Shown: positions 26,491 through 42,884 of the stretch, in pieces
Position numbering within the stretch: the first letter of the stretch is position 1
How the letters are laid out: each line of letters starts with the position of its first letter
Source: Bacillus sp. 123MFChir2
GTDB taxonomy: Bacteria; Bacillota; Bacilli; Bacillales; Bacillaceae_G
Assembly: GCF_000383235.1 (NCBI RefSeq)
Contig: NZ_KB910949.1
Location: forward strand, 1-57,225
DNA: 57,225 nucleotides
Direction of reading: 5' to 3'
Made by a program: the position numbers and the translations under genes
The notes under the pieces: model-generated
Seen by the model: the letters and a program-made list of their open reading frames with translations, nothing else
Databases searched by the model: none
What the model was told of the DNA's origin: nothing

Positions 26491-26667
26491 AATACGATAT
26501 TGGTACATAAGTCACTCTCTTTTCCTCTTAAATAGAAAGAAGTTTTCAATATAAATAGTAGTTTTTGAGGCATATAAAGAGTTCATTTTTTACCATTTTA
26601 TTAATATATTATACAAAGGAATAATTAATATGTTTATAAGAATATATATATGAATGAAGGGGTGTAA

Positions 26668-27044: not shown

Positions 27045-28280
27045 ATGTTTAATTACAAGAAAATTTCGGCTCTTATTATTGTGAGTTTGTTATTTTTACT
27101 TTCGCCTGTTAAGTTGTATGCAGAGAGTGTACCAGCGCCGGAGGTATTTGGACAGTTTGCGGTGTCAATTGATGCGAAAACAGGTGATGTTTTATATGAT
27201 AAGAATGCGCATCAACACGCTTTTCCAGCTAGTATAACGAAAGTGTTGACGGGTATTTTGTTGATGGAGAATGTACAGCCTGGAGAGCAAATTGCTTTTT
27301 CTCAAAAAGCTCTTGAACAGGATAAAAGTAATTATCAAATTGAATTTCAACCAGGTGAAACGATAGATCGTGATACGGCGCTTATGATTTTGATGGTGCT
27401 GAGTGCAAATGATGTAGCATATGCGATTGCGGAGCATGTGGCAGGAAGTCCGGAAAATTTTGCTAAGATGATGAATGAGAAGGCAGTGCAGTTAGGTGCA
27501 AAGGATAGTCATTTTGTTACGCCAAATGGTCTTCATGATCCAAATCATTATACAACGGCATATGATATGGCGATGATTACAAGGGGTGTGATGAAGCATC
27601 CAGAAATTATGAAGGCAATGAATACGAAGCGAACAAATGTTACAACGTCAAGACAAAGTGCGTCTATTTTTAATAAAGGACAATATTTTGAAAATCCAAA
27701 TTGTATTGGCGGGAAAACGGGTTTTACAAATGAGGCGCGTAATACACTTGTACAAATGAATGAAAAAGATGGAAATCGTATTGTGAATGTCGTAATGGCT
27801 TCACAAAGGCCAGAAATTTATGAAGATATGAGAAAGCTTGCTGATTATGCATTTCCGCAGTTTGCAAAGCAGCAAGTGTTAGATAAAAACAATTGGACAA
27901 AGCAAATGCTTTACTTGAATAAATCAGTAGATGGTGAGTTGGAGCGAAGCGTTGATCTTGAATTAAAACAAGGGGAAGCGAAAAATGTCCAAGCTGTTTT
28001 TAAAGAAAAGCATGTCGATGAAGCGAATTTATATAAAACAGGTCTTCACCGTGGTGATGTGATTGGGACTGTAGATTTGAAAAAGAATGATCAAACGATA
28101 GAAAGTATTAATGTTCTTTCGAAAGAAGATGTTGCGTTTGAGAAGCCAAAAGCGAATATTATAACAAAATCTACTTTTTCGTATGAGCTAATAGCTGGCA
28201 TTGGCGCAGTTATTCTTATTATTATTAGTATTGGGGTATTTCTTTGGAATCGTAAGAGACAGAAGATGTTGTCGCGATGA
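27045..28280 (+). CDS. D-alanyl-D-alanine carboxypeptidase (low-mass PBP, DacF/DacA-like)
   Basis: A 411 aa exported peptidoglycan carboxypeptidase that trims the terminal D-Ala of the pentapeptide. A signal peptide (residues 1-26, ending LYAES) precedes the S11 domain: Ser63 and Lys66 in FPASITKVLTG, SAN at 120-122 in LSANDVAYA, and GGKTGFTNEA with the KTG triad near 226. A PBP5-like beta domain follows (about 280-370). A C-terminal membrane helix (AGIGAVILIIISIGVFLW) ends in RKRQKMLSR; this transmembrane ending is unlike the amphipathic anchor of classical DacA. AAGGAG precedes the ATG. It is not in an operon with sporulation genes. Confidence 0.92.
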   Translation: MFNYKKISALIIVSLLFLLSPVKLYAESVPAPEVFGQFAVSIDAKTGDVLYDKNAHQHAFPASITKVLTGILLMENVQPGEQIAFSQKALEQDKSNYQIEFQPGETIDRDTALMILMVLSANDVAYAIAEHVAGSPENFAKMMNEKAVQLGAKDSHFVTPNGLHDPNHYTTAYDMAMITRGVMKHPEIMKAMNTKRTNVTTSRQSASIFNKGQYFENPNCIGGKTGFTNEARNTLVQMNEKDGNRIVNVVMASQRPEIYEDMRKLADYAFPQFAKQQVLDKNNWTKQMLYLNKSVDGELERSVDLELKQGEAKNVQAVFKEKHVDEANLYKTGLHRGDVIGTVDLKKNDQTIESINVLSKEDVAFEKPKANIITKSTFSYELIAGIGAVILIIISIGVFLWNRKRQKMLSR

Positions 28281-28311
28281 AAATAGGCAAATTCATTTTG
28301 CCTATTTTTTA
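28280..28311 (+). terminator. Terminator after the carboxypeptidase gene
   Basis: AAATAGGCAAA pairs with TTTGCCTATTT around a short loop, followed by TTTT, directly at the stop codon. Confidence 0.8.
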
Positions 28312-28332
28312 TTGTGTTTTTTGAATATTCGT

Positions 28333-28364
28333 TATAATATAGTTGTGAGTTCTTTAAAAAGAAC
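28333..28364 (+). promoter_or_regulatory. sipW promoter region with SinR box
   Basis: TATAAT at 28333-28338 is followed by GTTCTTTAAAAAGAAC (28349-28364), two inverted copies of the SinR recognition heptamer GTTCTTT. Placement just downstream of the start point suits repression of sipW-tasA by SinR. Confidence 0.75.
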
Positions 28365-28430
28365 GTCGAATATGAATGTTTTTTGCGATTTGCTTATATA
28401 AAGACGAAATAAAAGAAAGGAAGGAAACAG

Positions 28431-29006
28431 ATGAAGTTAGTATGGAAAGTGATTAGTAATATCATTTCTTTTGTTTTGTTTACGATTATGGTTGTTTTAG
28501 CGTTTGTTGTTATTTCGTCAAAGGCGAGTGGCAGTGATCCAACGGTGATGGGATACCAATTCAAAGCGGTATTATCAGGATCGATGGAACCTACGTTTTT
28601 AACAGGATCTGTTATTGCAATTGAACCGACAAAAGATGGTTCAAAGTATAAAAAAGGCGATGTTATTACGTTTAAAGAGAAAGATAACAAGATTGTGACG
28701 CACCGCATTATTGATGTGAAAAATATAAATGGAAAAGTGGCCTATGAAACAAAAGGAGACAATAATAATGGTCCTGATTTAAACCCGGTTCTTCCTGAAA
28801 ATGTAATCGGAAAATATGCGGATATTACTGCTCCGTATGTTGGTTATTTATTAAGTTATGCAAATTCAAAAGCCGGGGCAGCATTGTTATTAATTATTCC
28901 AGGGGTTTTATTGTTAGGATATTCTGTGGTTACTATTTTTGGAGCAATACGCAACATTGATTCTGAAAAGAAAAGCAAGTCTTCCGATGCAGGGCAATCA
29001 GTATAG
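28431..29006 (+). CDS. sipW: Signal peptidase I, SipW type
   Basis: A 191 aa ER-type signal peptidase that processes TasA-family precursors in Bacillus. Catalytic Ser51 lies in VLSGSMEPTF and His91 in KIVTHRI replaces the lysine of ordinary bacterial signal peptidases; GDNNNGPD (about 105-112) is the third conserved box. An N-terminal helix (residues 11-29) and a C-terminal helix (LLLIIPGVLLLGYSVV) anchor it. It is followed 65 bp later by tasA, its expected substrate gene. A SinR box overlaps the promoter region. AAAGGAAGG precedes the ATG. Confidence 0.95.
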   Translation: MKLVWKVISNIISFVLFTIMVVLAFVVISSKASGSDPTVMGYQFKAVLSGSMEPTFLTGSVIAIEPTKDGSKYKKGDVITFKEKDNKIVTHRIIDVKNINGKVAYETKGDNNNGPDLNPVLPENVIGKYADITAPYVGYLLSYANSKAGAALLLIIPGVLLLGYSVVTIFGAIRNIDSEKKSKSSDAGQSV

Positions 29007-29071
29007 AATGGTTATACTCTTCAATTATTGAAGGTTAACAATATATGTAGAGCTTAGGGGGGAGAAGTGGA

Positions 29072-29644
29072 GTGACATTAAAAAAGAAGTTAGGAATAGG
29101 CGTAGCGTCAGCAGTACTTGGAGCAGCACTGGTTGGCGGAGGAACATTTGCGTACTTTAGTGACAAAGAAGTATCAAATAATACGTTTGCAGCAGGTACG
29201 CTTGATTTAGTAGCAAATCCAACGACAATTGTTAATGTAGACAATCTTAAACCTGGTGATACAATTAAACGTGATTTTAAACTAGAGAATAAAGGTTCTT
29301 TAGATATTAAAAAAGTACTACTTCAAACAGATTATAGTGTAGTAGATACAAAGGGAGATAATAAAGAGGACTTTGGTAAACATATTAAAGTTATTTTCTT
29401 AAAAAATGTTGATAAACATGAAACAGTCGTGAAAGAAACAACGTTAGATAAATTAAAGAACGACACGAATGATCTTATTGCCTGGTTTTGGGATGAGAAA
29501 GGTATTTCTGCGGGGAATTCTGATAAATTCACTGTGAAATTTGAATTTGTTGATAATGGCAAGAATCAAAATGAATTCCAAGGCGATAAACTTCAATTGA
29601 AATGGACTTTTGATGCGCAGCAAACTGCTGGTGAGGAAAGGTAA
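29072..29644 (+). CDS. tasA: TasA, biofilm matrix fibre protein (camelysin family)
   Basis: A 190 aa secreted protein of the TasA/CalY (peptidase M73) family. The N-terminal export segment (LGIGVASAVLGAALVGGGTFAYFSD) ends in the FAYFSDKE sequence recognised by SipW. It is followed by the conserved NTFAAGTLDLVANP, NVDNLKPGDTIKRDF and the closing NEFQGDKLQLKWTFDAQQT. TasA-family proteins assemble into matrix fibres; the metalloprotease activity once claimed for camelysin is not obvious from any HEXXH motif. Start is GTG after GGGGGGAGAAG. Placement right after sipW marks it as the TasA orthologue; calY lies 2 kb on. Confidence 0.93.
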   Translation: MTLKKKLGIGVASAVLGAALVGGGTFAYFSDKEVSNNTFAAGTLDLVANPTTIVNVDNLKPGDTIKRDFKLENKGSLDIKKVLLQTDYSVVDTKGDNKEDFGKHIKVIFLKNVDKHETVVKETTLDKLKNDTNDLIAWFWDEKGISAGNSDKFTVKFEFVDNGKNQNEFQGDKLQLKWTFDAQQTAGEER

Positions 29645-29660
29645 AGTTTAAGGAATCCAC

Positions 29661-29709
29661 AAGACTATCTTTACTAGATGGTCTTGTTCTTTATAAAGAA
29701 TGTTATAAT
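29661..29709 (+). promoter_or_regulatory. tasA terminator overlapping a SinR box and promoter
   Basis: AAGACTATCT pairs with AGATGGTCTT as the sipW-tasA terminator. Its T-rich tail is part of GTTCTTTATAAAGAAT (29686-29701), a SinR box with one mismatch. TATAAT at 29704-29709 would be the -10 of the next gene, so SinR would sit just upstream of the -10. Confidence 0.6.
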
Positions 29710-29751
29710 CCTTTATAAGGAATATAAATTCATCTAATGGCAGGTGTGAAT

Positions 29752-30495
29752 ATGAAAAAATCATCAAGGAAAGTAAGGAATATACTTATATTACCATGTA
29801 TCGGTTCTATAGCTTTTTATATGGGATCTCAAGTTGTGACACATACAGAAGCATCTTATGTAAGTCAGCCAAAAGTAGAGGCAACCTTATCAACTGCGAT
29901 AGTTTTTCCGAAAACAATTGAAAAGTTAACAGGGGAAGCAAAGCAACATAAAGAAGCGATTTTCAATCATTTCAATGCGATCAATCATGAAGGAAAAGGA
30001 ACAGTTGCAGAATTAGATGGGAAGCTCGCTCTATGGAAGCAGCACCGCGAAGCAATCAAGACGGAAATCGCAGCGCTGCAAGCTAATTTTACGGAGATCG
30101 ATTCCTATTATAAAACAGCAGTAGAAGGTGTAAAGAAAAATAAAGAGAGTTCTGCACAAGAAGTATTGAAATATGTCCAAACTGGTTTTAATGAAGTGCA
30201 AAGTATTCGCAGTGAAGTTGAGAAACAAGCAGTTTTACAAAAAGTAGATGAACGCATTGGAGCATTAGAAAAACAAATAAATGAAGAGAAAAAGAAACAA
30301 GCAAACAGTGTTCAAATCATATCACCTGTACAACCTTCAAATTCTTCTCAGCAAACAGAGCAGCTTCCAAAACAAGAAGAGAAAAAGCAGGAGAATCATT
30401 CAAATGAAGAGCAGTTGAAACAAAAACAACCAGTTACCCCGCCAGCGCAACCTGAGGAAAAGAAAGAAGGATCAGTTACAGAAACAAAGCAGTAA
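29752..30495 (+). CDS. DUF4047 family secreted protein
   Basis: A 247 aa protein, found next to tasA in the B. cereus group. An N-terminal hydrophobic stretch (ILILPCIGSIAFYMG) is followed by HTEASYVSQPKVEATLSTA, whose EASYVSQ resembles the SipW-type export region. A long helical segment rich in Lys, Glu and Gln follows (about 55-185), then a disordered Gln/Pro/Glu/Lys tail. I recall the equivalent gene in the type strain being reported to affect biofilm; the mechanism is not evident from sequence. ATG 29752 with GGCAGGTGTG upstream was preferred to 29737. A SinR box lies in its promoter, in line with a matrix role. Confidence 0.8.
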   Translation: MKKSSRKVRNILILPCIGSIAFYMGSQVVTHTEASYVSQPKVEATLSTAIVFPKTIEKLTGEAKQHKEAIFNHFNAINHEGKGTVAELDGKLALWKQHREAIKTEIAALQANFTEIDSYYKTAVEGVKKNKESSAQEVLKYVQTGFNEVQSIRSEVEKQAVLQKVDERIGALEKQINEEKKKQANSVQIISPVQPSNSSQQTEQLPKQEEKKQENHSNEEQLKQKQPVTPPAQPEEKKEGSVTETKQ

Positions 30496-30637
30496 CACAT
30501 ACTTGTAAGGAAAGGCTAAAAAAATAGATTTCACGCGAATGTAGATACGACTAAAAATACCTTCCAAGATGAAAACTGAATTTCAGATGTACATTCCATA
30601 CATTGATAAGATACAGGCAAAGATAGCGTTGTTAATT

Positions 30638-30660
30638 GAAAAGGCGAGTTGCCTTTTCTT
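30638..30660 (+). terminator. Terminator after the DUF4047 gene; degenerate stretch before it
   Basis: AAAAGGC and GCCTTTT flank a 5-base loop and are followed by CTTATTT. From 30525 to 30600 one frame reads FHANVDTTKNTFQDEN before a stop, with no start codon, and could be a small coding remnant. Confidence 0.6.
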
Positions 30661-30685
30661 ATTTCATATTTTATGAGGGATGATT

Positions 30686-31339
30686 ATGAAACGGAAAAAG
30701 CTGTGGTATATCGTGATCGTATATTGTATAGTTGCATTCATCATTGGGATTACAACAAGTATGGAAAAAGTGCTCGCTAAGGAGCGTAAGGAAATTGATT
30801 TAAGTTTAACACCAAAAGAGATGCTATTTGATGTAACGAAGGATATGAAGCCTGGGGACTGGGCGAAGCGGAGCATCCGTGTGAATAATGACGGGGCAGC
30901 GGGATTTTTATATACGATGTCTGCTGAGTTTACAGAAGGATCGAAAAAGCTATATGATGGATTAACATTAGAGATAAAGGATCAGCAAGAACAGGTTCTT
31001 TATAAAGGGAATTTAAGTGGTTTTACAAAGCTAAAAGGACGTACATTATCTGCGGGGCAGAGTGAACAATTACAATATATTGTGCGCTTTCCTGAGGAAT
31101 TAGGAAATGAGTATCAAGGATTAGAAACACAAGTTAAGTTTGTATTTTATGCTGAAGAAGACGGTGGTCATATTGGCGAACCGAAAGATTCTAATGGCAG
31201 TACGAATGGAAATGATTCAGAAAATCATATAAAACTATTACCGCGTACAGGTGCTGATTATATGTATTCCGTTTTAATCGGAATTGGAATGATGGTGATG
31301 GGATTCTTTGTGTATGGAAAACGAATGAAGCGAAAATAA
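30686..31339 (+). CDS. LPXTG wall-anchored protein with TasA/CalY-like domain
   Basis: A 217 aa surface protein. A signal segment (IVIVYCIVAFIIGITTSME, residues 8-26) leads to KERKEIDLSLTPKEM. The ectodomain (about 35-155) follows the layout of its neighbours TasA and CalY: DMKPGDWAKRSIRVNNDGAAGF here against NLKPGDTIKRDFKLENKGSLDI there, and GNEYQGLETQVKFVFYAEE against NEFQGDKLQLKWTFDAQ. A Gly/Asn/Ser linker is followed by the sortase signal LPRTGADYM, a membrane helix and KRMKRK. It could tie matrix fibres to peptidoglycan, a part played by TapA in B. subtilis; this is inference. ATG 30686 with GAGGG upstream was preferred to 30680. Confidence 0.75.
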   Translation: MKRKKLWYIVIVYCIVAFIIGITTSMEKVLAKERKEIDLSLTPKEMLFDVTKDMKPGDWAKRSIRVNNDGAAGFLYTMSAEFTEGSKKLYDGLTLEIKDQQEQVLYKGNLSGFTKLKGRTLSAGQSEQLQYIVRFPEELGNEYQGLETQVKFVFYAEEDGGHIGEPKDSNGSTNGNDSENHIKLLPRTGADYMYSVLIGIGMMVMGFFVYGKRMKRK

Positions 31340-31469
31340 AAGAAAGTATTATATATGTATAAAAAAAGAGAAATTGTAAGGAAAGTGACGGAAAAGAAAG
31401 AAAAGTAAATTAAAACGTTAAAAAAACAGAAAATACAGAACTTTTTGAGGTTTTATTTTTACACTTCAT

Positions 31470-31485
31470 GTTCTTTATAATGAAC
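31470..31485 (+). promoter_or_regulatory. SinR box overlapping the calY -10 region
   Basis: GTTCTTTATAATGAAC contains a full GTTCTTT heptamer and a partial inverted partner. TATAAT (31476-31481) lies inside it, so SinR binding would block RNA polymerase. A small hairpin CTCTTAT/ATAAGAG (31580-31597) sits in the roughly 140 base leader. Confidence 0.7.
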
Positions 31486-31630
31486 GAAAGAGACTTAGTA
31501 AAGAACATACATGGAGCAATTTTGGTAGCAGACGTGCAACGATTATGTCGAAACGAAGCAATTATTTTATTAGTTACATCTCTTATCTACATAAGAGCTA
31601 ACAATAAAAAGAAAATTGGGGGAATTTAGA

Positions 31631-32224
31631 ATGGGTCTTAAGAAAAAGTTAGGCATGGGAGTAGCATCAGCAGCATTAGGGTTATCTTTAATCGGTGGAG
31701 GAACGTTTGCATACTTTAGCGATAAAGAAGTATCTAACAATACATTTGCGGCAGGTACGTTAGATCTTGCGCTTAATCCAAAAACTATCGTTGATATCGA
31801 CAACTTAAAACCTGGCGATTCCGTGAAAAAAGAATTTTTATTACAAAATAAAGGTTCATTAGCAATTAAAGATGTAAAGTTAGCAACTAAATATGCAGTA
31901 ATCGATAGCAAAGGCGATAATAATGGTGAAGATTTTGGTAAGCACATTAAAGTGAAGTTTATCTGGAACTGGGATAAACAAAGCGAGCCAGTCTATGAAA
32001 CTACGTTAGCTGATCTGCAAAACGCAGATCCAGATGTAATTGCAAAAGATGTATTTGCTCCTGAATGGGCTGAAGAAGGCGGCTTAAAAGCTGGTACAGA
32101 GGATTATTTATGGGTACAATTCGTTTTCGAAGATAATGGACAAGACCAAAACATCTTCCAAGGCGATAAATTGAACTTAGAATGGACTTTCAATGCTTCA
32201 CAAACTGATGGTGAAGAGAAGTAA
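31631..32224 (+). CDS. calY: Camelysin CalY
   Basis: A 197 aa cell-surface and matrix protein of the TasA family, about 60 percent like the tasA product here by eye. It has the same export segment (LGMGVASAALGLSLIGGGTF, then AYFSDKE), DIDNLKPGDSVKKEF and the ending NIFQGDKLNLEWTFNASQT. In B. cereus CalY contributes to biofilm and is a surface adhesin and virulence-linked protein. ATG 31631 follows GGGGG; a TTG frame start at 31616 is spurious. It has its own SinR-controlled promoter and terminator. Confidence 0.95.
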   Translation: MGLKKKLGMGVASAALGLSLIGGGTFAYFSDKEVSNNTFAAGTLDLALNPKTIVDIDNLKPGDSVKKEFLLQNKGSLAIKDVKLATKYAVIDSKGDNNGEDFGKHIKVKFIWNWDKQSEPVYETTLADLQNADPDVIAKDVFAPEWAEEGGLKAGTEDYLWVQFVFEDNGQDQNIFQGDKLNLEWTFNASQTDGEEK

Positions 32225-32233
32225 GTAATATAA

Positions 32234-32262
32234 TAAAAGCGGAGGATTTCCTCCGCTTTTTA
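32234..32262 (+). terminator. calY terminator
   Basis: AAAAGCGGAGGA pairs with TCCTCCGCTTTT around a tiny loop, followed by T residues, 10 bp after the stop. Confidence 0.85.
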
Positions 32263-32283
32263 TAATACAAATAAAAAGAGCAC

Positions 32284-32471
32284 TTATATATATGAATCCA
32301 TTTTGATTTTCCGACATATAGATGGCTGCTATGCAGAAAAAAAGGAGCTTCCACTCGCTTTCTGACTTTGTTTAAACTGCGCATGTGGCAGTAAAAGGCC
32401 CTGACCGCTTCTATGCATGGGCCCACCTAAAAAGATGGTTTTATGTCAGTTTTTTAATTTGGATTTATATA
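32284..32471 (-). repeat. bcr1-type repeat copy G
   Basis: On the minus strand it runs from TATATAAATCCAAATTAAAA to GGATTCATATATATAAG. About 13 bp (CCAGATGCTCTCG) are missing after CTATGCATGG. It splits a sequence that is continuous in the second copy of the sinR-inhA duplication (35334-35373). Confidence 0.85.
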
Positions 32472-32485
32472 GAAAGTACCTTTCC

Positions 32486-32672
32486 CGCATCATTTTTGTT
32501 TCTGTTTCCACTTATTAAACTCTAAAAATTTACGAAATTGTTCTTTTAATTCCATGCCTCAAAATATTAGATACTTCCGCACTGCTCATATTCATATCTA
32601 AAGCTTATTACAATAAATCAATCTATTCTGAATCAAGTATTTTTTGCTATCCGTTTGCACAAATGACGCCTT
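32486..32672 (-). pseudogene. Remnant of a second sinR-sinI pair
   Basis: Plus-strand 32486-32557 matches the 3' end of sinR (TTTCCACTTATTAAACTCTA and on to GTTCTTTTAA). It is fused directly to 32563-32672, which matches most of sinI (TCATATTCATATCTAAAGCT, then CCGTTTGCACAAATGACGCC). Nearly all of sinR is deleted. In the sinI part one base is lost after codon 6, the TGG codon is TAG and the GGAGG site is AAAGG. It lies between calY and inhA, where intact sinR-sinI sit in reference B. cereus genomes as I remember them. Confidence 0.9.
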
Positions 32673-32827
32673 TATTTCATTGATATTAGCTAATTTGTAT
32701 ATATATTTATCTGGAAAAAACGTAATTTTTCAAAAATATTACAAATTGAGACGATATATTGCAAAATAATAGAATTTTCTTTATTATCAAAACATTGGTA
32801 CATATTTTAATTTGGGGAGGAATAGGG

Positions 32828-35215
32828 ATGAAGAAAAAGCCTTTTAAAGTGCTGTCTACGCTTGCGGCGACAGCTGTACTTAGTTGCACATTTGGGTTTG
32901 GTAGTCAATCTGTTTATGCGGCAACACCGTCTAATGTAGGATCTTTAAGTCCAATCGACGATCATTTAATTCCAGACGATCGTTTAGCAGACGCACTCAA
33001 GAAACGCGGTGTAATTAGTGAATCTGCGTCGAAAGAAGACACATTAAAAGCTGTTGAAAAATACGTAGAGAAGAAAAAAGGTGAAAATGCTGGGAAAGAA
33101 CCAGCAGCAGGGGATAGTGTTACACGAGAAGCGTCTGACTTTTTGAAAAAGGTGAAAGATGCAAAAGCAGATGCGAAAGAAAAAGCAGATCAACCTGCTG
33201 GAGGGCCAGCAGCTGGGCAAGCTCCGGTTAAAGGGGGATTAAACGGAAAAGTACCAACTAGTTCAGCGAAGCAAAAAGGATATAATGGTGATGTTCGTAA
33301 AGATAAAGTACTTGTATTACTAGTAGAATATGCTGATTTTAAACATAACAATATTGATCAAGAACCAGGTTATATGTATTCAAACGATTTTAATCAAGAA
33401 CATTATCAAAAAATGTTATTTGGTGATGAGCCATTTACACTCTTTGATGGCTCAAAAATCCCAACATTTAAACACTATTATGAAGAGCAATCTGGTGGTA
33501 GTTATTCGGTCGATGGAACAGTAACAAAGTGGTTGACAGTTCCAGGTAAAGCAGCGGATTACGGTGCAGATGCTGGCGATGGCGGCCATGATAATAAAGG
33601 ACCAAAAGGACCACGCGATCTTGTAAAAGATGCATTAAAAGCAGCTGTAGATAGCGGTATTGATTTATCTGAATTTGACCAATTTGATCAATACGATGTC
33701 AATCAAGACGGAAATAAAGATCAGCCAGATGGTCTTATTGATCATTTAATGATTCTTCACGCTGGAGTTGGGCAAGAAGCAGGCGGTGGTAAATTAGGTG
33801 ATGACGCAATTTGGTCACATCGCTGGAATCTTGGAAAACCATATCCAATTGATGGCACAAAGGCAAAAGTTGATAACTGGGGCGGTAAAATGGCTGCATA
33901 CGATTATACAGTTGAGCCAGAAGACGGAGCAGTCGGCGTATTTGCACATGAATATGGTCATGATTTAGGTCTTCCAGATGAATATGATACAAAGTATTCT
34001 GGTGCAGGTGAGCCAATTCAATCTTGGTCTATTATGAGTGGCGGCAGCTGGGCAGGTAACATTGCAGGTACAACACCAACAAGTTTCTCACCGCAAAATA
34101 AAGAGTTTTTCCAAAAAACAATCGGTGGGAACTGGGCAAATATTGTTGAAGTCGATTATGATAAGTTAAATAAAGGTATTGGTTATGCAACATTCTTAGA
34201 TCAAAGTGTAACGAAATCAGCTCGTCCTGGTATGATTCGTGTTAACTTACCAGACAAAGATGTAAAAGGTATTCAGCCTGCATTTGGTAAGAAATATTAC
34301 TATAGTACAAAAGGTGATGACCTTCATACGACACTAGAAACGCCAGTATTTGATTTAACAAATGCGACAAATGCGAAGTTTGATTACAAATCATTGTATG
34401 AAATTGAAACTGGTTATGACTTCCTTGAAGTACATGCAGTGACAGAAAATGGTGCAAAAACGTTAGTGGATCGAATTGGCGAAAAGAATGTGAAAAATGG
34501 TATGGATACAACAGATGGTAAATGGGTAGATAAGTCATATGACTTAAGCCAATTTAAAGGTCAAAAAGTAAAACTAGTATTCGAATACATTACAGATGGT
34601 GGTTTAGCACCAAACGGTTTTACTCTTGATAATGCGGCATTAACTGTTGATGGAAATGTTGTGTTCTCTGATGATGCAGAAGGCGAAACAAAATTGAAAT
34701 TAAACGGTTTCGTTGTAGCAGATGGTTTTGATAAGAAGAAACATAACTACTATTTAGAGTGGAGAAACTACGCTGGTGCAGATGAAGCATTAAAACATGC
34801 TCGTGGTCCAGTGTACAATACAGGTCTTGTTGTATGGTATGCAGACACTAGTTACACAGATAACTGGGTTGGTGTTCACCCAGGAGATGGATTCTTAGGT
34901 GTTGTTGATTCTCATCCAGAGGCAATTGTGGGAACAGTAAACGGCAAACCAACTGTTGCAAATAGCACACGTTATCAAATTGCAGATGCTGCGTTCTCCT
35001 TTAACCAAACGCCAGCATGGAAAGTTGCATCTCCATCACGCGGAACATTTGATTACAAAGGGTTACCAGGTGTAGCGAAGTTTGATGATTCTAAAACGTA
35101 TATGAACAATTTAATCCCAGATGCAGGACGTAAAGTACCAAAGCTTGGATTGAAATTTGAAGTAGTTGGACAAGCAGATGATAATTCTGCAGGTGCAGTT
35201 CGTTTATATCGTTAA
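32828..35215 (+). CDS. inhA: Immune inhibitor A metalloprotease (InhA1-type, M6 family)
   Basis: A 795 aa secreted zinc protease that cleaves insect antibacterial peptides, matrix proteins and other secreted toxins and is found on the exosporium. A signal peptide (residues 1-34) is followed by a charged propeptide, then the M6 catalytic domain with His374-Glu375 and His378 in [17 protein letters not shown] later Met-turn region has [11 protein letters not shown]. The C-terminal part has MAM-like and beta domains ([30 protein letters not shown]). ATG 32828 has GGGGAGGAA upstream, while the frame is open to 32759. Length matches the family. No SinR box is seen near it, although SinR is known to influence inhA1. 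Confidence 0.95.
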
Positions 35216-35223
35216 TGATAGAA

Positions 35224-35262
35224 AAGCTGTTGAAGGGGATTCCTTTCAACAGCTTGTTTTTA
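35224..35262 (+). terminator. inhA terminator
   Basis: AAGCTGTTGAA pairs with TTCAACAGCTT and is followed by TGTTTTTAT. The same hairpin is repeated after the inhA remnant at 36562-36596. Confidence 0.85.
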
Positions 35263-35269
35263 TGTCTGA

Positions 35270-35333
35270 ACCTCTTTTTTATCTGTCCGCATTGATAAAA
35301 AAGAGGTTGGTTTTTCAATTTGCATTTATATAT
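35270..35333. terminator. Second hairpin joined to a solo bcr1 end
   Basis: AACCTCTTTTTTATC pairs with GATAAAAAAGAGGTT, then TTTTTCAATTTGCATTTATA follows, which is the outer end of bcr1 on the minus strand without its body. The same arrangement occurs at 48724-48778. Confidence 0.65.
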
Positions 35334-35373
35334 AAATAAAAAGAGCACCTTCATTGAAAGCACTCTTCCTGCA

Positions 35374-35697
35374 TCATTTTTTTTGTTGTTTCCACTTATT
35401 AAACTCTAAAAATTCACGAAATTGCTCTTTTGAAACACCGGAATGCATGGCCTCTTTAACGAGTTTAATCCACTCAGAGTCCATTGTATGTTCCTTAGTT
35501 GGTTCATCATGAAGAAGTACATCAACAGGAACGTGCAGAACGTTAGAAATCTTTTCGAGAAATTGGATCGAAGGATTTTTTTGTAAGTTTCGTTCAATGG
35601 AACTAATATATGACTTTGCAACGCCTGCTTTTTCGGCAAGTTCTGTTAAGGAGATGCCTCTTTGTAGACGCAGTCGTTTTATACGTTCTCCAATCAT
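35374..35697 (-). CDS. sinR: SinR, master repressor of biofilm genes
   Basis: A 107 aa XRE-family repressor. The HTH (residues 1-60) has IKRLRLQRGISLTELAEKAG and AKSYISSIERN, and the C-terminal part (EWIKLVKEAMHSGVSKEQFREFLEFNKW) is the helical hook that forms tetramers and is bound by SinI. It represses sipW-tasA, calY and its own promoter through GTTCTTT boxes found in this window. AAAGGTGCG precedes the ATG. It lies downstream of sinI in the same direction with an internal promoter between them. Confidence 0.96.
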   Translation of the reverse strand: MIGERIKRLRLQRGISLTELAEKAGVAKSYISSIERNLQKNPSIQFLEKISNVLHVPVDVLLHDEPTKEHTMDSEWIKLVKEAMHSGVSKEQFREFLEFNKWKQQKK

Positions 35698-35742
35698 ATT
35701 AGCGCACCTTTCTTACTGTATGTATTCGACTTAAGATGTAAA

Positions 35743-35773
35743 TTATTATAACACATTTTTCTCTAAAAAGAAC
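35743..35773 (-). promoter_or_regulatory. sinR internal promoter with SinR half-site
   Basis: On the minus strand GTTCTTT (35773-35767) overlaps a -35-like TTCTTT, 16 bp before TATAAT near 35750. It implies negative self-control of sinR. Confidence 0.6.
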
Positions 35774-35781
35774 AATGTCGG

Positions 35782-35913
35782 TTAGTTCTGTGAGGGTTGA
35801 CTTCCGTGTTGCAAAAAGTTAGATACCTCTGAACTGGTCATATTCATATCTAAAGCTTCTAATAATAAATCAATCCATTCTGAATCAAGTATTTCTTTGT
35901 TATCCGTTTGCAC
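35782..35913 (-). CDS. sinI: SinI, antagonist of SinR
   Basis: A 43 aa protein that binds SinR and removes it from DNA, releasing matrix gene repression. It consists almost only of the SinR-binding helical hook: LDSEWIDLLLEALDMNMTSS and EVSNFLQHG, mirroring the C-terminus of SinR. The GTG at 35913 has GGGAGGCG at the right distance; the open frame continues upstream to 35970 without a site. A bcr1 copy begins 45 bp upstream, close enough to affect its promoter. Confidence 0.92.
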   Translation of the reverse strand: MQTDNKEILDSEWIDLLLEALDMNMTSSEVSNFLQHGSQPSQN

Positions 35914-35957
35914 AAATGACGCCTCCCTAATAATTGCGGTTATAAAAGCTAGAAAAC

Positions 35958-36162
35958 TATATATATCCAAATTAAAAAAACGACATAAAAAACCTCTTCC
36001 TTTTTAGGGGAGGACGAGAGCATCTGGCCGTGCATAGAAGCGGTCAGGGCCTTTTCCTGCCACATACGATGTTTTAAAACAAAGGGCGCAAGCAAGTGCA
36101 GGTCGTGTTGCAGTCTGCATAACAGCAACTTATATGTCGAAAGATTAAAGTTGATTTATATA
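35958..36162 (+). repeat. bcr1-type repeat copy H, upstream of sinI
   Basis: It starts ATATATATCCAAATTAAAAA and ends GTTGATTTATATAA. Near its right end it contains TGTCGAA, a perfect Spo0A box, in place of the TGTNAAA seen in the other copies. The following 36163-36355 is AT-rich with nothing recognised. Confidence 0.88.
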
Positions 36163-36354
36163 ATTCATTAACACTATCATAAGTATGGAAAAATAAAATC
36201 ACGTTAAAATAATGAAAAATTTGTATATTTCTAGAAATTTAATCAAGTAGGACTAATATTTTGCAATTACATACAGAAATTTTAATAGTTTTATCAAATT
36301 TTATCAATATTTTCTGAAAACATTGTTAAATCCGAATATATATCAATCTAAAAT

Positions 36355-36596
36355 AAAGGATTTTTTTCAAAAATATTACAAGTTAAGATGATATATCGCA
36401 AATCCATTAAATTTTCTTTATTATCTAAACGTTGGAATGTATTTGATGTTAGGGAGGAATAGGGATAAAGAAAAGGCCTTTTAAGGTGCTGTCTACGCTC
36501 ACGGCGACAGCTGGGCAGGTAGAATTGCGGGTGCAGTCGTTTATATCGTTAATGATGGAGAAGCTGTTGAAGGGGATTCCTTTCAACAGTTTTTTT
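36355..36596 (+). pseudogene. Gutted second copy of inhA
   Basis: 36361-36520 matches the inhA upstream region and first codons (AAAATATTACAA, GGGAGGAATAGGGAT, CTGTCTACGCTC) except that ATG has become ATA. It then jumps, through CAGCTG, to the segment encoding SWAGNIAG near residue 403, and again, through GCAGGTGCAG-like sequence, to the last codons and the inhA terminator. About 2.2 kb of coding sequence is gone. Confidence 0.9.
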
Positions 36597-36723
36597 ATAG
36601 GAACATATAGTTTAAGCTATTAATAAAATAATATATAATAAAATTTTACATATCAGTTCATTTTTAATAAGAAAAAACAAGAAATGTATTATAATATATG
36701 ATGAAGTAAAGGGGGGAAGCTTT

Positions 36724-38091
36724 ATGACGATTGCTTCTATTGTGGAACGACAAAAATCCTATTTTTATAGTGGGAAGACAAGAGGAATAGAGGAAAGAAG
36801 GAAACAGTTGCGCGCGTTATATGAAAGTATTCAGCGCTATGAGTCTGAAATTTTTGAAGCGCTAAAGCTGGATTTAAATAAATCAGAGCATGAATCGTAT
36901 ACAACAGAGATTGGTTATACATTAAAAGAGATTTCTTTTATGATAAAAAATCTTTCGAAATGGAGTAAACCAAAGCGCGTGAAAACGGCAATGACTCATA
37001 TTGGATCAACAGGGAAAATTATCCCAGAGCCGTATGGCGTAACGTTAGTAATTGCTCCGTGGAATTATCCGTTTCAACTAGCGATTGCTCCTTTAGTTGG
37101 AGCAATTGCGGCTGGAAATACAGTTGTCTTAAAGCCTTCAGAGTTAACACCCAATGTTTCGAGCGTTCTTGCAAAAATGTTAACGGAGTTATTTCCACCA
37201 GAGTTTGTCGCTGTGATTGAAGGCGGCGCCGAGGTGAGCACAGCTTTACTGAAGGAACCGTTTGATTATATTTTCTTTACTGGTAGTGTCGGAGTTGGAA
37301 AAATTGTTATGGAGGCAGCTGCAAAACAATTAACGCCCCTTACACTTGAGCTTGGTGGCAAAAGTCCGTGTATTGTACATAAAGATGCAAAGCTTGATGT
37401 TACAGCGCGGCGAATTGTCTGGGGGAAATTTTTAAATGCGGGGCAAACGTGCGTGGCACCTGATTATGTATACGTTCATTCTTCAATTAAAGATCAATTT
37501 ATAGAAGCGATAAGAAAAACTGTGCATGAACAATACGGAGAGAAGCCACTGCAAAATGAGAAATATGTTCGGATTGTGAGCAGGCGGCATTTTGAAAGGT
37601 TATGTTCATTTTTAGAAGATGGTCAGGCTGTCGTAGGCGGGAATTATGATCAAGATAAACTAGTAATTGAACCAACAGTACTTACAGATGTAACATGGAA
37701 TGATGCTGTTATGGAAGATGAGATTTTTGGTCCCATTTTACCATTATTAGAGTATGAGAATATAGAAGATTTGATAACAACTGTTCAGCGTCATCCGAAA
37801 CCGCTTGCACTGTATGTTTTCTCTGAAGCACGAGATGTGCAAAAGCAAGTAACGCAATCCATTTCCTATGGAGGCGGTTGTATTAATGATGTTGTATATC
37901 ATCTAGCAACGCCGTATTTACCGTTTGGCGGTGTTGGCCAAAGTGGACTGGGGAGTTATCACGGAGAGCAGAGTTTTCAAACATTTTCACATTATAAAAG
38001 CATTTTGTCTCAATCGACAGCATTTGATATGAAAATCCGCTATTCTTCTACAAAAAGTGCTTTAAAATTCATCCGAAAATTGTTAAAATGA
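36724..38091 (+). CDS. NAD(P)-dependent aldehyde dehydrogenase
   Basis: A 455 aa class 3-like aldehyde dehydrogenase that oxidises aldehydes to acids. The cofactor site shows IAPWNYPFQLAI and FTGSVGVGKIVMEAAAK, the general base is Glu in LELGGKSPCIV, and the nucleophile is Cys in NAGQTCVAPDYV. EIFGPILPLLEYE is the conserved substrate-side motif. The C-terminus (YSSTKSALKFIRKLLK) is basic and amphipathic and could bind membrane, as in fatty aldehyde dehydrogenases. A GGGGGGAAG ribosome site precedes the ATG. It is monocistronic with its own terminator. Confidence 0.92.
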   Translation: MTIASIVERQKSYFYSGKTRGIEERRKQLRALYESIQRYESEIFEALKLDLNKSEHESYTTEIGYTLKEISFMIKNLSKWSKPKRVKTAMTHIGSTGKIIPEPYGVTLVIAPWNYPFQLAIAPLVGAIAAGNTVVLKPSELTPNVSSVLAKMLTELFPPEFVAVIEGGAEVSTALLKEPFDYIFFTGSVGVGKIVMEAAAKQLTPLTLELGGKSPCIVHKDAKLDVTARRIVWGKFLNAGQTCVAPDYVYVHSSIKDQFIEAIRKTVHEQYGEKPLQNEKYVRIVSRRHFERLCSFLEDGQAVVGGNYDQDKLVIEPTVLTDVTWNDAVMEDEIFGPILPLLEYENIEDLITTVQRHPKPLALYVFSEARDVQKQVTQSISYGGGCINDVVYHLATPYLPFGGVGQSGLGSYHGEQSFQTFSHYKSILSQSTAFDMKIRYSSTKSALKFIRKLLK

Positions 38092-38128
38092 TGATGGTGT
38101 TTATCAATTGGTTCGTCCGTATGATAAA

Positions 38129-38155
38129 AGCCCCTTCAACACGAAGGGGTTTTTC
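38129..38155 (+). terminator. Terminator after the aldehyde dehydrogenase gene
   Basis: AAGCCCCTTC pairs with GAAGGGGTTT around AACAC, followed by TTTCT. Confidence 0.85.
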
Positions 38156-38195
38156 TATTCAAGGTATGTATCGCACGAAATGAAACCGAACATAT

Positions 38196-38245
38196 TACAT
38201 AAAGTGAAGCTTCTATCAGTGGTGGGCATCCACCATTCATCACGT
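38196..38245 (+). repeat. Hairpin repeat (AAAGTGAAGCTTCTATCAG member)
   Basis: AAAGTGAAGCTTCTATCAGT is followed by GGTGGGCATCCACC, a short stem-loop. It belongs to the same family as the copies at 4752 and 46796. Confidence 0.55.
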
Positions 38246-38290
38246 TTACATTACGTGATCAAACATCATTTTTGTTTAAATTGAAACAAA
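38239..38290 (+). promoter_or_regulatory. Two palindromes before potA
   Basis: ATCACGT-N7-ACGTGAT (38239-38259) and TTTGTTT-AAATTG-AAACAAA (38271-38290) are perfect inverted repeats. The second overlaps a possible TTGAAA -35 box, so it may be the operator of the pot operon. No regulator gene is adjacent. Confidence 0.5.
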
Positions 38291-38356
38291 GTTATTGTAT
38301 ATAGAATACTTGGTTATTTATGAATATCAAAAATATGAGGTAGATAGGAAGAGAAG

Positions 38357-39340
38357 ATGAAAAATATTATTAAAGTCGAAGCAGTAGAAAAACATTTTGG
38401 GGATCAAGTTATTATTCCGCCGCTTTCGTTAGACATTAAAGAAGGTGAGTTTGTAACGATCCTTGGTCCGAGTGGTTGTGGGAAAACGACGTTACTTCGT
38501 ATGATTGCTGGTTTTGAAAAACCGACAAAAGGTGTAATTTCGCTCGATGATGAAACGATTAACGATTTACCCCCTTATAAACGTCATATGAACTTAGTGT
38601 TTCAGCATTATGCATTGTTTCCACATATGACTGTTGAGAAGAATATTCGCTTTGGAATGAAGATGCAAAAGGTTTCTGAAGCAGAGCAACAAGAACGTGC
38701 TGATGAAGCGATGCGTTTAACACAGTTAACAGAATTCCGTAATCGGAAACCATCTAAACTTTCTGGCGGGCAACAGCAGCGCGTGGCGATTGCACGTGCA
38801 ATCGTGAATAATCCTCGTGTGTTGTTATTAGATGAGCCGCTAGGAGCACTAGATTTTAAGCTTCGAAAAGATTTGCAGCGTGAATTGAAAAACTTACAAC
38901 GTAATCTGGGTATTACGTTCATATATGTGACGCATGATCAAGAAGAAGCGATGAGTATGAGTGATCGCATTGTGGTTATGAACAAAGGTCACATTGAACA
39001 AATTGGAACGCCAAAAGAAATTTATCATAAACCAAAAACGTTGTTCGTTGCGACGTTTATTGGAGAAAATAATATTGTTCAAACAGGGGAAACATACGTA
39101 GCAGTACGACCGGAAAATGTGAAAGTACGTTCCGTGGAAGATTCGTCTAATGAGGGATATCACTTTGGTCATATTGAGGATATTGAATTTGTCGGAAATA
39201 TGGAGAAGCTTTATATTCGCGATGAGAAAACAGGCGAGTTGTTTATGGCGTATCAAAGTGCAGACGAAGCGATGCAGTGGAACATTGGCGACAATGTGTC
39301 TGTAGGCTGGGAAAAAGAGGATGAGGTGACCTTAAATTGA
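38357..39340 (+). CDS. potA: Spermidine/putrescine ABC transporter ATPase PotA
   Basis: A 327 aa importer ATPase. Walker [10 protein letters not shown] lies near residue 37, the Q-loop in [12 protein letters not shown], the signature [15 protein letters not shown] and Walker [13 protein letters not shown] follow, then [12 protein letters not shown]. The C-terminal TOBE region ([10 protein letters not shown]-like [12 protein letters not shown], about 250-325) is typical of PotA/MalK proteins. It is the first of four genes; its stop overlaps the TTG start of potB. Confidence 0.93.
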
Positions 39341-40182
39341 AAAAAGGGAAATTACTTGCATTACCTACAGTTGCTTGGTTGCTGATCTTCTTCTTAGTAC
39401 CTCTCTTGTTTGTGTTAGCTTTTGCATTTTTGCAGCGCGGGACGTATGGAACAGTTGAAATGAGCTTTACCTTAGAAAATATTAAACGTGTATTTGATCC
39501 CCTCTATATGGAGACGTTATGGGAAACAGTAAAAATTGCCGTTATAACAACAGTACTTTGTTTATTGATTGGATATCCGTTCGCCTATACGGTGACAATT
39601 GTTGATCGTAAATGGCGTTCTCTTTTACTGCTTCTTGCTACAATCCCGTTTTGGATTAACTTTTTAGTCCGTTCATATGCTTGGATTGTTATTTTACGTT
39701 CGCAGGGGCTTGTCAATACACTATTGCTTAAATTGGGTATTATTAGTGAACCTTTAAACTTACTATACAATATACCATCTGTTATTCTAGGGATGGTATA
39801 TTCACTCTTACCATTTATGATTTTGCCTGTATATGCAGCGATTGAACAACTTGACAAGAGAAAATTAGAAGCGGCATATGATTTAGGAGCAACACCGCTT
39901 AAAGCGTTTTGGCATGTAACAGTTCCAATGACGATGTCAGGAATCGCGACAGGATCGATTTTAGTATTTGTGTCGTCTATTGGTATGTTTGTTGTATCAG
40001 ACGTTATGGGTGGTTCGAAAGTTGCATTAATCGGAAATGTGATTCAAAATCAGTTTTTAGGTGCACGCGATTGGCCGTTTGGCTCAGCGCTATCTATGAT
40101 TGTTGTGTTATTCTCCGTTCTGTTAATTTACTTATATTATCGAGCTACGAAAGTATATAACTATGGAAACGGAGGGGAATAA
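39337..40182 (+). CDS. potB: Spermidine/putrescine ABC transporter permease PotB
   Basis: A 281 aa permease with six helices. The EAA loop [20 protein letters not shown] (about residues 178-197) contacts PotA. The opening [21 protein letters not shown] is typical of PotB. Start is TTG at 39337, overlapping potA by four bases with GATGAGGTGACC upstream, so translation is coupled. Confidence 0.92.
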
Positions 40183-40188
40183 ACGAAG

Positions 40189-40989
40189 ATGAAAAAGTTT
40201 TTAGTCACTTATTCTTGGCTAATTTTATTGTTTCTTTATTTACCAATGATGGTACTTATGCTGTTTTCGTTTAATGACTCACGTATTAATGCGGAGTGGA
40301 AAGGCTTTACATTTCATTGGTATACAGATTTATTTCAAAGACAAGATGTAATTGATGCGCTTATCAACAGTTTAACGATTGCAGTTGTCACGACAATTGT
40401 CTCTACACTGTTAGGTGTGTTAATCGCAATTGCTTTACATCGTTATAAATATCGTTTTGAAGGTGCAATTAACGGACTTGTTTATTTACCAATTCTCATT
40501 CCAGATATTTTAATGGGATTATCGCTTTTAATCTTGTTTAGTCAACTTGGTATTGAACTTGGACAAATGACAATTATTATTGCCCACATTACATTTAGTA
40601 TTTCATTTGTCGTTGTTGTTTTATCAGCAAGACTTTCGGGTATGGGGCGCGACTTAGAAGAAGCAGCAAATGATTTAGGAGCAACGCCGTGGCAAACGTT
40701 TCGTTATGTCACGCTACCAGGGCTCGCACCAGGTATTATTTCAGCGGCATTATTAACATTCACATTATCTATTGATGACTTTGTGATAAGTTTCTTTGTA
40801 TCAGGTCCAGGATCAACAACATTGCCACTGTATATTTACAGTATGGTAAAACGTGGTATATCTCCTGAAATTAATGCATTGTCGACAATTTTGATTGTTG
40901 TAATTGTCGGATTAATGCTCGCTTCTGAAATGTTCCGTAGCAAAGGTGCAGATGGCGAGGAAAATAAAGGCGGCCATCTTCCGTTGTAA
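40189..40989 (+). CDS. potC: Spermidine/putrescine ABC transporter permease PotC
   Basis: A 266 aa permease with six helices and the EAA loop EEAANDLGATPWQTFRYVTLP (about residues 160-180). PotC-type features include YLPMMVLMLFSFNDS at the start and LSIDDFVISFFVSGPGSTTL later. It begins six bases after potB and is followed by potD after 53 bp; with PotB it forms the membrane channel. Confidence 0.92.
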   Translation: MKKFLVTYSWLILLFLYLPMMVLMLFSFNDSRINAEWKGFTFHWYTDLFQRQDVIDALINSLTIAVVTTIVSTLLGVLIAIALHRYKYRFEGAINGLVYLPILIPDILMGLSLLILFSQLGIELGQMTIIIAHITFSISFVVVVLSARLSGMGRDLEEAANDLGATPWQTFRYVTLPGLAPGIISAALLTFTLSIDDFVISFFVSGPGSTTLPLYIYSMVKRGISPEINALSTILIVVIVGLMLASEMFRSKGADGEENKGGHLPL

Positions 40990-41042
40990 TAAATGACCGA
41001 GTAAAAGGTGAAGGATTAAGTTCAAACTAGGAGGGAATGCAA

Positions 41043-42095
41043 ATGAAATGGATGAAAGTAGTCGCAAGTACTGCACTTACTTTCGGAATTGCTGCTGGTG
41101 TGTTAGCTGGATGCGGCGAAAAGAAAGAAGAATTAAATATTTACAGCTGGGCTGATAACTTTGATGAGCAAGTCATTAAAGACTTTGAAAAGAAATATGA
41201 CGTGAAAGTAAATTATGATAAATATGCAAGTAATGAAGAAATGCTTGCGAAATTACAAGCAGGCGGTGCAAAGTATGATTTAGTTCAACCGTCTGATTAT
41301 ATGGTAAAAACAATGACAAAAATGGATTTGTTAGAACCATTAGATAAAAAGAACATTCCGAATGTAGGGAATCTCGTTTCAAACTTTAAGACACCTCCGT
41401 TTGATCCGGAAAATAAGTATTCAATCGTGTATACATGGGGTGTAACGGGCATTGCTTATAATAAAAAATATGTAAAAGAAGCACCAACAAGTTGGAATGA
41501 TTTATGGAATGAAAAATATAAAGGCCACGTCGCATTATTAAATGATTCTCGTGAAGTTCTTGGCATGGGGCTGAAGAAAAATGGGTTTTCAAATAGCGCA
41601 AAAAATGATGCGGAGTTAAAAACAGCTTTTACAGATATTCAAAAATTATTACCAAACTTATTAGCGTTTGATACAGATAATATTAAACAACAATTTATTA
41701 CTGAAGAGGCATGGATCGGTACTGTATGGTCCGGAGATGCGGCATACATTGCAAAAGAAAATAAAGATGTTGGATATGTCGTTCCAAAAGAAGGCAGCAC
41801 AATTTGGGCAGATACATTAGCAATTCCAAAAGGTGCAAAACATAAAGAGCTTGCAGAGAAATTTATTAACTACTTAATGGATCCAAAAGTCAGCGTGAAA
41901 AACTATGAATCCATTGGATATAGTAATCCGAATGAAAAGGCTCGTCCTCTTCACAGTAAAGATTATCAAAACAATCATATGATTTTCTTAACAAAAGAAG
42001 AGCTAGATCGTACAGAATGGCTTGTTGATGTGGATGGAAAATTAAAAGATTATGATCGTTACTGGACAGAACTGAAGACGGGAAAAGAAAAGTAA
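41043..42095 (+). CDS. potD: Spermidine/putrescine-binding lipoprotein PotD
   Basis: A 350 aa periplasmic-binding-type protein tethered as a lipoprotein. The lipobox LAGC has its cysteine at 24. ELNIYSWADNFDEQVIKDFE, KYDLVQPSDYMVKTM and GTVWSGDAAYIAKENKDVGY are family signatures of polyamine-binding PotD/PotF. It delivers spermidine or putrescine to PotABC. ATG 41043 has AGGAGGG seven bases ahead; an upstream ATG at 41037 is too close to it. A strong terminator ends the operon. Confidence 0.92.
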   Translation: MKWMKVVASTALTFGIAAGVLAGCGEKKEELNIYSWADNFDEQVIKDFEKKYDVKVNYDKYASNEEMLAKLQAGGAKYDLVQPSDYMVKTMTKMDLLEPLDKKNIPNVGNLVSNFKTPPFDPENKYSIVYTWGVTGIAYNKKYVKEAPTSWNDLWNEKYKGHVALLNDSREVLGMGLKKNGFSNSAKNDAELKTAFTDIQKLLPNLLAFDTDNIKQQFITEEAWIGTVWSGDAAYIAKENKDVGYVVPKEGSTIWADTLAIPKGAKHKELAEKFINYLMDPKVSVKNYESIGYSNPNEKARPLHSKDYQNNHMIFLTKEELDRTEWLVDVDGKLKDYDRYWTELKTGKEK

Positions 42096-42097
42096 TA

Positions 42098-42133
42098 AAA
42101 AGCGCGATTTCTTAGCGGAAATCGCGCTTTTTT
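42098..42133 (+). terminator. potABCD terminator
   Basis: AAAAGCGCGATTTC pairs with GAAATCGCGCTTTT, followed by TTTAT. Confidence 0.88.
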
Positions 42134-42153
42134 ATAGCAGGAGGAACGGAAGG

Positions 42154-42780
42154 TTGAAAAAGAAACTACATCTGTATGAGATTGTATGCATCGCACTTTT
42201 GCTTTGTGCATTTAGCCTCATTGCGTGGAGAGTACATTCTGGCGGAGTAACGGCAGTTGATGAATATGTGAAGGGAATGGTAACAGGACTGCAAACAGAA
42301 TCATCACTTACGTTTTTTCGTTATGTGACAAAACTTGGTTCTGGAAGTGGGATGGCCATTGTGTTAGCAATAAGCTTGTTCTGTCTATGGAAGAAACGTT
42401 ATTACGTAGCAATGGTTATATATCCTCTTTCTATTCTTAGTACACATCTTATTAATAAAGGAATTAAAGCGATTGTGAAAAGAGATCGGCCGACTCTTAA
42501 TGAGGCGCTAGATGCGCTCGGGTATAGTTTTCCAAGTGGACATGCGATGTTATCGATTGTTACGTATGGATTTCTTGCCTATATAATCGCAGCAAACGTA
42601 AAAAGTGTAGCAGCAAAATACTTTGTAACGATAGCAGCCATTGTACTCATTGTTTTAATTGGACTAAGCCGAATTATTTTATCTGTGCATTATCCAACTG
42701 ATGTTTTAGCAGGCTATTGCATGAGCGGTGTATTACTTATTATCGCAATCTATTTACACCGTTTCTATTCAGCGCGTTAA
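42154..42780 (+). CDS. PAP2 family phosphatase
   Basis: A 208 aa membrane phosphatase with about six helices. The three catalytic boxes of the type 2 phosphatidic acid phosphatases are present: KAIVKRDRP (about residues 105-113), YSFPSGHAM (128-136) and SRIILSVHYPTDVLAGY (172-188). Such enzymes dephosphorylate phosphatidylglycerol phosphate or undecaprenyl pyrophosphate, and the choice cannot be made here. Start is TTG with AGGAGGAA upstream. It lies 20 bp behind the pot terminator and has its own terminator. Confidence 0.9.
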   Translation: MKKKLHLYEIVCIALLLCAFSLIAWRVHSGGVTAVDEYVKGMVTGLQTESSLTFFRYVTKLGSGSGMAIVLAISLFCLWKKRYYVAMVIYPLSILSTHLINKGIKAIVKRDRPTLNEALDALGYSFPSGHAMLSIVTYGFLAYIIAANVKSVAAKYFVTIAAIVLIVLIGLSRIILSVHYPTDVLAGYCMSGVLLIIAIYLHRFYSAR

Positions 42781-42819: not shown

Positions 42820-42884
42820 TGAACGAAAGAGTGGATATGATACACTAAGAGAAAGAATATGAGAAGAGGAGTAGGTGGGACTCT

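Follow-up and report, generated by a model that had tools for sequence, protein, structure and literature searches.

How can a regulator pair and the gene that lies divergently beside it be taken apart when their surroundings stay in place? Gene order changes fast in bacteria, but deleted copies disappear and so the steps seldom remain visible. The question is raised by a 57,225-nucleotide stretch of Bacillus sp. 123MFChir2 (RefSeq assembly GCF_000383235.1, contig NZ_KB910949.1, positions 1 to 57,225; hereafter the window), in which sinR, sinI and the protease gene inhA stand in the order calY-inhA-sinR-sinI. An earlier note on this sequence had proposed a tandem duplication of a sinR-sinI-inhA unit followed by reciprocal decay. 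Co-linear blocks, relatives with a single unit and a contrast in the direction of decay support this as the best reading: the sinR-sinI-inhA block very probably underwent tandem duplication and then complementary loss, as in the tandem duplication-random loss model.

Two co-linear units with complementary losses

Between calY and an aldehyde dehydrogenase gene (aldH) lie two adjacent units of like order. Their alignment, which the earlier note had suggested as a check, is significant, with expect (E) values down to 1e-47. The blastn comparison of the window with itself yields five block pairs, alike in order and orientation and 82-91% identical (E from 3e-5 to 1e-47), and thus the two adjacent sinR-sinI-inhA units described earlier are indeed there (Table 1). 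The 15-mer AAATAAAAAGAGCAC, said to open both units, occurs exactly twice in the whole window on both strands, at 32269 and 35334, which are the unit starts. Each of the three genes is left with one intact copy in the locus, and the losses are complementary between the units. An assembly artefact was ruled out because the unit copies differ by 9-18% over the matched blocks.

In unit 1, sinR and sinI are wrecked and inhA is intact, as had been claimed. No frame of at least 30 amino acids is found on the minus strand over 32430-32689 in the open reading frame listing, and the three minus-strand frames of 32490-32660 contain 5, 5 and 7 stops; inhA forms a 795-amino-acid Peptidase_M6 frame. One detail of the earlier reading had to be dropped: positions 32286-32475, taken for sinR, are a bcr1-like repeat at the place where the sinR terminator would be.

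Unit 2 presents the reverse picture. Its sinR and sinI are intact by their Pfam matches, a terminator-like hairpin of 15 pairs is retained at the place of the sinR terminator (terminator scan), and blastn blocks show that inhA is in scraps, all of which agrees with the earlier note. The terminator said to survive in these scraps fared less well: the end piece (36526-36599) is 91% alike, yet the scan lists no terminator there. The initiation codon of this inhA and two inner stretches of ~1.17 and ~1.13 kb are gone. Over 36465-36555 on the plus strand, the three frames have 0, 4 and 1 stops; the open one is that of the lost start codon, and it is open by chance, the piece being short. A 45-amino-acid frame with a GTG start (36486-36623) crosses the remnant in that same frame and is probably also due to chance.

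Both deletion joins in inhA lie within near-repeats, one of 11 bp and one of 10 bp and each with a single mismatch, at sites 32866/34040 and 34063/35188 of the intact copy. Among 40000 random joins in the same sequence, a stretch of at least 10 was found in 38 and one of at least 11 in 15. These near-repeats suggest that the deletions may have occurred by a slipped-strand mechanism.

Gene order in relatives

The ancestral arrangement can be read in three outgroup loci, namely L115 of Ectobacillus antri (genome G001; also numbered L001), L113 of G004 and L114 of G018. Each of them has sinR(-), sinI(-), inhA(+), aldH(+) and an ABC ATPase gene once (tblastn, E 1e-4). No second tblastn match to sinR, sinI or inhA is found in these loci, and the 3' piece of inhA has one match only. 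A calY-like gene and sipW lie at the opposite end of the unit in G001 and G004; in G018, sipW is present and a calY match was not seen in the same locus. Remnants of a second unit would lie in the gaps between tblastn match ends, which span 218 bp (G001), 226 bp (G004) and 136 bp (G018) between inhA and aldH, and 26 bp from sinR to the next gene in both L115 and L113, the two loci in which that side was measured.

As far as the cited texts give the locus, the tags of B. cereus ATCC 14579 run consecutively as BC1281 (calY), BC1282 (sinR), BC1283 (sinI) and BC1284 (inhA1) (PMC3909190, PMC10722173). The reference order calY-sinR-sinI-inhA, which the earlier note had given, is thus confirmed by the outgroup loci and by these tags. 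Because both sources have sinR-sinI-inhA, the order calY-inhA-sinR-sinI of the window is derived.

The single unit was found in three of the five neighbourhoods examined, out of 19 family genomes. In the other two (G003 and G019), sinI-sinR are present and inhA is absent within the 20 kb fetched. InhA is matched in 16 of the 19 genomes; in the other 13 of these 16 it lies on a different contig from the sinR-like match or more than 0.5 Mb away, and neighbours separated by contig breaks are possible among them. In G003 (locus L112), sinI-sinR are flanked by a D-Ala-D-Ala carboxypeptidase gene and an ABC-ATPase gene; sipW, calY, inhA and aldH are unmatched at this sin locus and InhA is unmatched genome-wide, a pattern suggestive of an independent loss at the same locus.

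By its gene content, the window probably belongs to the B. cereus group or a close relative. Beyond the family, a scan of genome contigs gave no B. cereus group title among the best 80 of 316 confirmed loci, the best match being Ectobacillus antri at 81%; its pattern list held at least 594 matches, so the absence of the group from these results is not proof. Viral contigs contained three weak SinR relatives only, and plasmids gave 10 records with distant matches within inhA.

Direction of decay

Differences between the units were assigned by parsimony to the unit departing from the outgroup majority. In the sinR and sinI coding sequences, unit 1 bears 12 changes and unit 2 bears 3, with 2 ambiguous. 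In the ribosome-binding site, first codons and inner scrap of inhA, the counts are 2 for unit 1 and 8 for unit 2, with 4 ambiguous. The contrast of 12:3 versus 2:8 has a Fisher p of 0.005, for small numbers and for coding limits picked after a wider set had been seen. That wider set, to which promoter, flanks and terminator are added, has 18:9 in the sin part, with 5 ambiguous, and 19:36 in the inhA part, with 9 ambiguous (p = 0.009). Hence, by this polarisation, it is mainly the decayed copy that has taken substitutions, in both parts, as duplication in situ with complementary relaxation would predict.

bcr1-like repeats and the junction

Three repeat pieces absent from the earlier reading are found at the locus. 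The first lies within unit 1 and the second next to sinI in unit 2; the third is a fragment at the junction. We term them bcr1-like, judging by general description. Unit 2 has no repeat at the place matching 32286-32475. The right end of the spacer between the units (35310-35336) matches the tips of bcr-like copies, with 23 of 24 nucleotides identical for those at 18509 and 26296 (E 1e-7).

Self-comparison finds 11 copies plus the junction fragment in the 57 kb. The nine copies outside the units are at 256-436, 1121-1269, 6342-6538, 12346-12544, 18509-18689, 26296-26499, 46914-47064, 47165-47286 and 51888-52088. These sequences are short, multi-copy and mostly intergenic: when set against the 67 frames of the window, 6 of the 11 are clear of any frame, 4 reach 5-67 nucleotides into a frame end, and that at 47165-47286 lies inside a 104-amino-acid frame (46998-47312). 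Rfam gave no match in 28000-40000 and the repeat query none in phages, and genome G003 has at least 42 matches to one of the repeats. Published counts of bcr1 average 39 per genome, with a maximum of 130, and the cited text mentions TTTAT motifs (PMC6542083). By comparison, the density in the window looks high, with counting thresholds that differ between the two.

Origin of the two units

We propose that the ancestral block, calY - sinR(-) sinI(-) - inhA(+) - aldH, underwent a duplication in place that reached from just past the calY hairpin to just past the inhA terminator. The hairpin tails of calY and inhA both read TTTTTAT, and the duplication join may have formed at these T-rich tails, with a bcr-like insertion into the join at a later time. 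One working copy of each function would have been enough, and therefore whatever one unit kept could have been lost from the other. Unit 1 would have lost most of sinR, the frame of sinI and ~180 bp of the stretch between sinI and inhA; unit 2 would have lost inhA through two deletions between short near-repeats, together with its start codon. The divergent sinI/inhA pair would thereby have been split in two, giving the order calY-inhA-sinR-sinI.

Several observations weigh against this scenario. The outgroups are distant (68-79% DNA identity in the sinR region) and polarisation is noisy, so that single assignments are uncertain and the evidence is the contrast between the two sides. Ambiguous differences make up 6 of 31 in the coding subset and number 14 in the wider set, where the kept inhA copy itself bears 19 changes. 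Near-repeats are not rare in inhA, with 246 pairs of 10-mers matching at 9 or more positions, and sites for such joins are therefore not scarce. The duplication join is obscured by the 71-bp spacer. Finally, no genome recognisable by name as belonging to the close group is among the 19 family genomes, and intermediate states and strain distribution are unseen in the genomes compared.

The divergence of 9-18% between units would also fit an import, in which recombination placed a unit of another strain or species next to the native one and complementary loss came after, and changes do occur on the constrained copies as well (3 of the 15 sin changes and 2 of the 10 inhA changes). However, in both parts the decayed copy has more changes than the other, enough to account for most of the divergence without import, and the units abut with only the spacer between them, which makes import unlikely and origin in situ the reading that we infer. 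The repeats offer another route, by unequal crossing-over or by carrying sinR-sinI from elsewhere, given the like-oriented repeat pieces in unit 1 and at the junction. Yet the unit 1 repeat lies inside the boundary marked by the 15-mer and the junction piece outside it; crossing-over between them would not give the observed junction, and on that ground repeat-mediated unequal crossing-over was ruled out. Nor is there any repeat match over 36599-46742, a search of the outgroup loci L112-L116 with two of the repeats found nothing at E 1e-3, and transport of sinR-sinI would leave no scraps of inhA, so that a rearrangement driven by the repeats is highly improbable.

Tandem duplication with complementary loss is compatible with a further idea, namely that the remnants were retained because they function as terminators, spacers or regulatory DNA. 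They are still legible despite many substitutions, and the piece that covers the end of inhA and its terminator region is, at 91%, better conserved than any other block. Changes fall preferentially on the remnants, however, the terminator scan lists none in the unit 2 piece, and promoter-like matches in the region are no more numerous than in shuffled sequences (20 versus 20.5, promoter scan). We regard such retention as rather unlikely.

The sinI-inhA intergenic region

According to the tblastn coordinates of the three relatives, sinI and inhA are separated by ~354, 354 and 487 bp. In unit 2 the distance is 551 bp, or ~341 bp without the 210-bp repeat, whereas in unit 1 it is 167 bp; against the longer outgroup distances, unit 1 therefore lacks ~180 bp on the sinI side. 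The view that the shared region was cut back in unit 1 thus holds. Unit 2 keeps the sinI flank, and unit 1 keeps the proximal inhA flank, which is still visible in unit 2 at 82%. Since the promoter scan does no better than on shuffles, we claim no promoter.

It is tempting to speculate that duplication and complementary loss rewired regulation in this lineage, separating control of the protease from that of the biofilm switch. The divergent sinI/inhA intergenic region, which Ectobacillus also has, would then be divided, with inhA depending on the proximal 130-170 bp only and co-directional behind calY, and with sinI read from beyond a mobile repeat of 210 bp that lies 43 bp from the sinI start codon. 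This possibility is a doubtful one. SinR dependence of inhA1 has been reported in B. anthracis and, before that, in strain 407, and in the cited account a microarray did not confirm it (PMC3909190); this mixed evidence affects how important the split could be. In any case, a regulator pair of biofilm formation parted from the secreted protease gene formerly beside it amounts to a natural test of the importance of the shared intergenic region.

Neighbouring genes and feature coordinates

The neighbouring matrix genes tasA (29072-29644) and calY (31631-32224) are paralogues, with 71% DNA identity over 317 columns. In the Ectobacillus loci L113 and L115 (20 kb), both queries match one and the same gene, and the matrix genes were therefore probably duplicated in this lineage too. 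Between tasA and calY are two frames, 29737-30495 and 30680-31339, of which the first encodes a DUF4047 protein (CapP/BC1280-like) and the second a protein that has an LPXTG anchor and matches camelysin in part; the ATCC 14579 tags in the cited texts leave room for just one gene there. Further local direct repeats of 75-83% identity are present at 47749-47990 and 12783-13412.

Table 1. Features of the duplicated locus and the matching blocks of its two units
Feature	Positions	Strand	Evidence and remarks
calY (camelysin, Peptidase_M73)	31631..32224	+	Pfam PF12389, 313 bits; left neighbour, outside duplication
Hairpin 3' of calY	32235-32260	-	Strand as listed by terminator scan; presumably calY terminator
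Unit 1 of tandem duplication	32263..35262		Ends from direct repeats and blastn blocks
bcr1-like repeat in unit 1, sinR terminator place	32286..32475	-	Five matches, 199-207 columns, 70-79% to window copies
sinR remnant, 3' stub only	32490..32548	-	blastn block and alignment
sinI remnant fused to sinR stub, frame broken	32560..32671	-	89% versus intact sinI
inhA intact, M6 metalloprotease, 795 amino acids	32828..35215	+	Pfam PF05547 (Peptidase_M6) 435 bits; NCBIfam TIGR03296 286 bits
Terminator-like hairpin after unit 1 inhA	35224-35255		Terminator scan
Junction spacer, 71 bp	35263..35333		15-bp perfect inverted repeat inside
Unit 2 of tandem duplication	35334..36599		Direct repeats and blastn blocks
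sinR intact, 107 amino acids	35374..35697	-	Pfam HTH_3 and SinI; 81% amino acid identity to Ectobacillus antri
sinI intact, 43 amino acids, GTG start	35782..35913	-	Pfam PF08671, 40.1 bits versus cut-off of 31.4
bcr1-like repeat in unit 2, 43 bp upstream of sinI start codon	35957..36166	+	blastn to window copies; similar repeats in G003
inhA remnant, promoter region and first codons, initiation codon lost	36336..36513	+	82% to unit 1, alignment
inhA remnant, inner scrap flanked by two deletion joins	36503..36535	+	85% to 34040-34072
inhA remnant, last codons and terminator region	36526..36599	+	91% to 35188-35262
Aldehyde dehydrogenase gene (aldH)	36724..38091	+	PDB sequence search; right neighbour, outside duplication; same neighbour in 3 outgroup loci
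Block pair, sinR 3' end	32469-32547 / 35353-35431		blastn, 87%, E 9e-24
Block pair, sinI	32560-32671 / 35812-35924		blastn, 89%, E 2e-38
Block pair, inhA promoter and first codons	32699-32876 / 36336-36513		blastn, 82%, E 1e-47
Block pair, inner inhA scrap	34040-34072 / 36503-36535		blastn, 85%, E 3e-5
Block pair, inhA end and terminator region	35188-35262 / 36526-36599		blastn, 91%, E 3e-24

Comparison with known systems

In searches of openly licensed papers, no title listed concerns this arrangement of the locus, which is no claim that it is unpublished. The genes calY, sinR, sinI and inhA1 are also those of the sin-inhA1 locus of B. cereus ATCC 14579 (PMC3909190, PMC10722173), in which, unlike in the window, they follow the order calY-sinR-sinI-inhA1, as judged from the locus tags in those texts and not from sequence. 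In Ectobacillus antri (L001/L115), sipW, a calY-like gene, sinR-sinI-inhA-aldH and the ABC ATPase gene likewise lie close together; this locus differs from the window in having one unit, and a second copy, a remnant or a bcr-like repeat was not found in the 20 kb covered.

The repeats of the window are ~120-210 bp long and divergent, and are set beside bcr1-bcr3 by description. Those of the B. cereus group are described in the cited passages as short, multi-copy and largely intergenic (PMC6542083, PMC3446304), as are ours, and the TTTAT motif of the published repeats recurs near the ends of several window copies.

The event itself is of a known kind, unusually legible here. Tandem duplication-random loss is known from the gene order of animal mitochondria. 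In the model, a block is copied in tandem, one copy of each gene is lost, and a new order results, with remnants at the expected places; the window agrees with the mitochondrial cases in its tandem block copy, complementary loss, new order and correctly placed remnants. It differs from them in that the DNA is apparently a bacterial chromosome and that the block is a divergent regulator/target pair sharing its intergenic region. It differs further in that both complementary sets of remnants can still be read. With both halves legible and the ancestral order preserved in relatives, the route of duplication and then loss can therefore be read directly from this locus.

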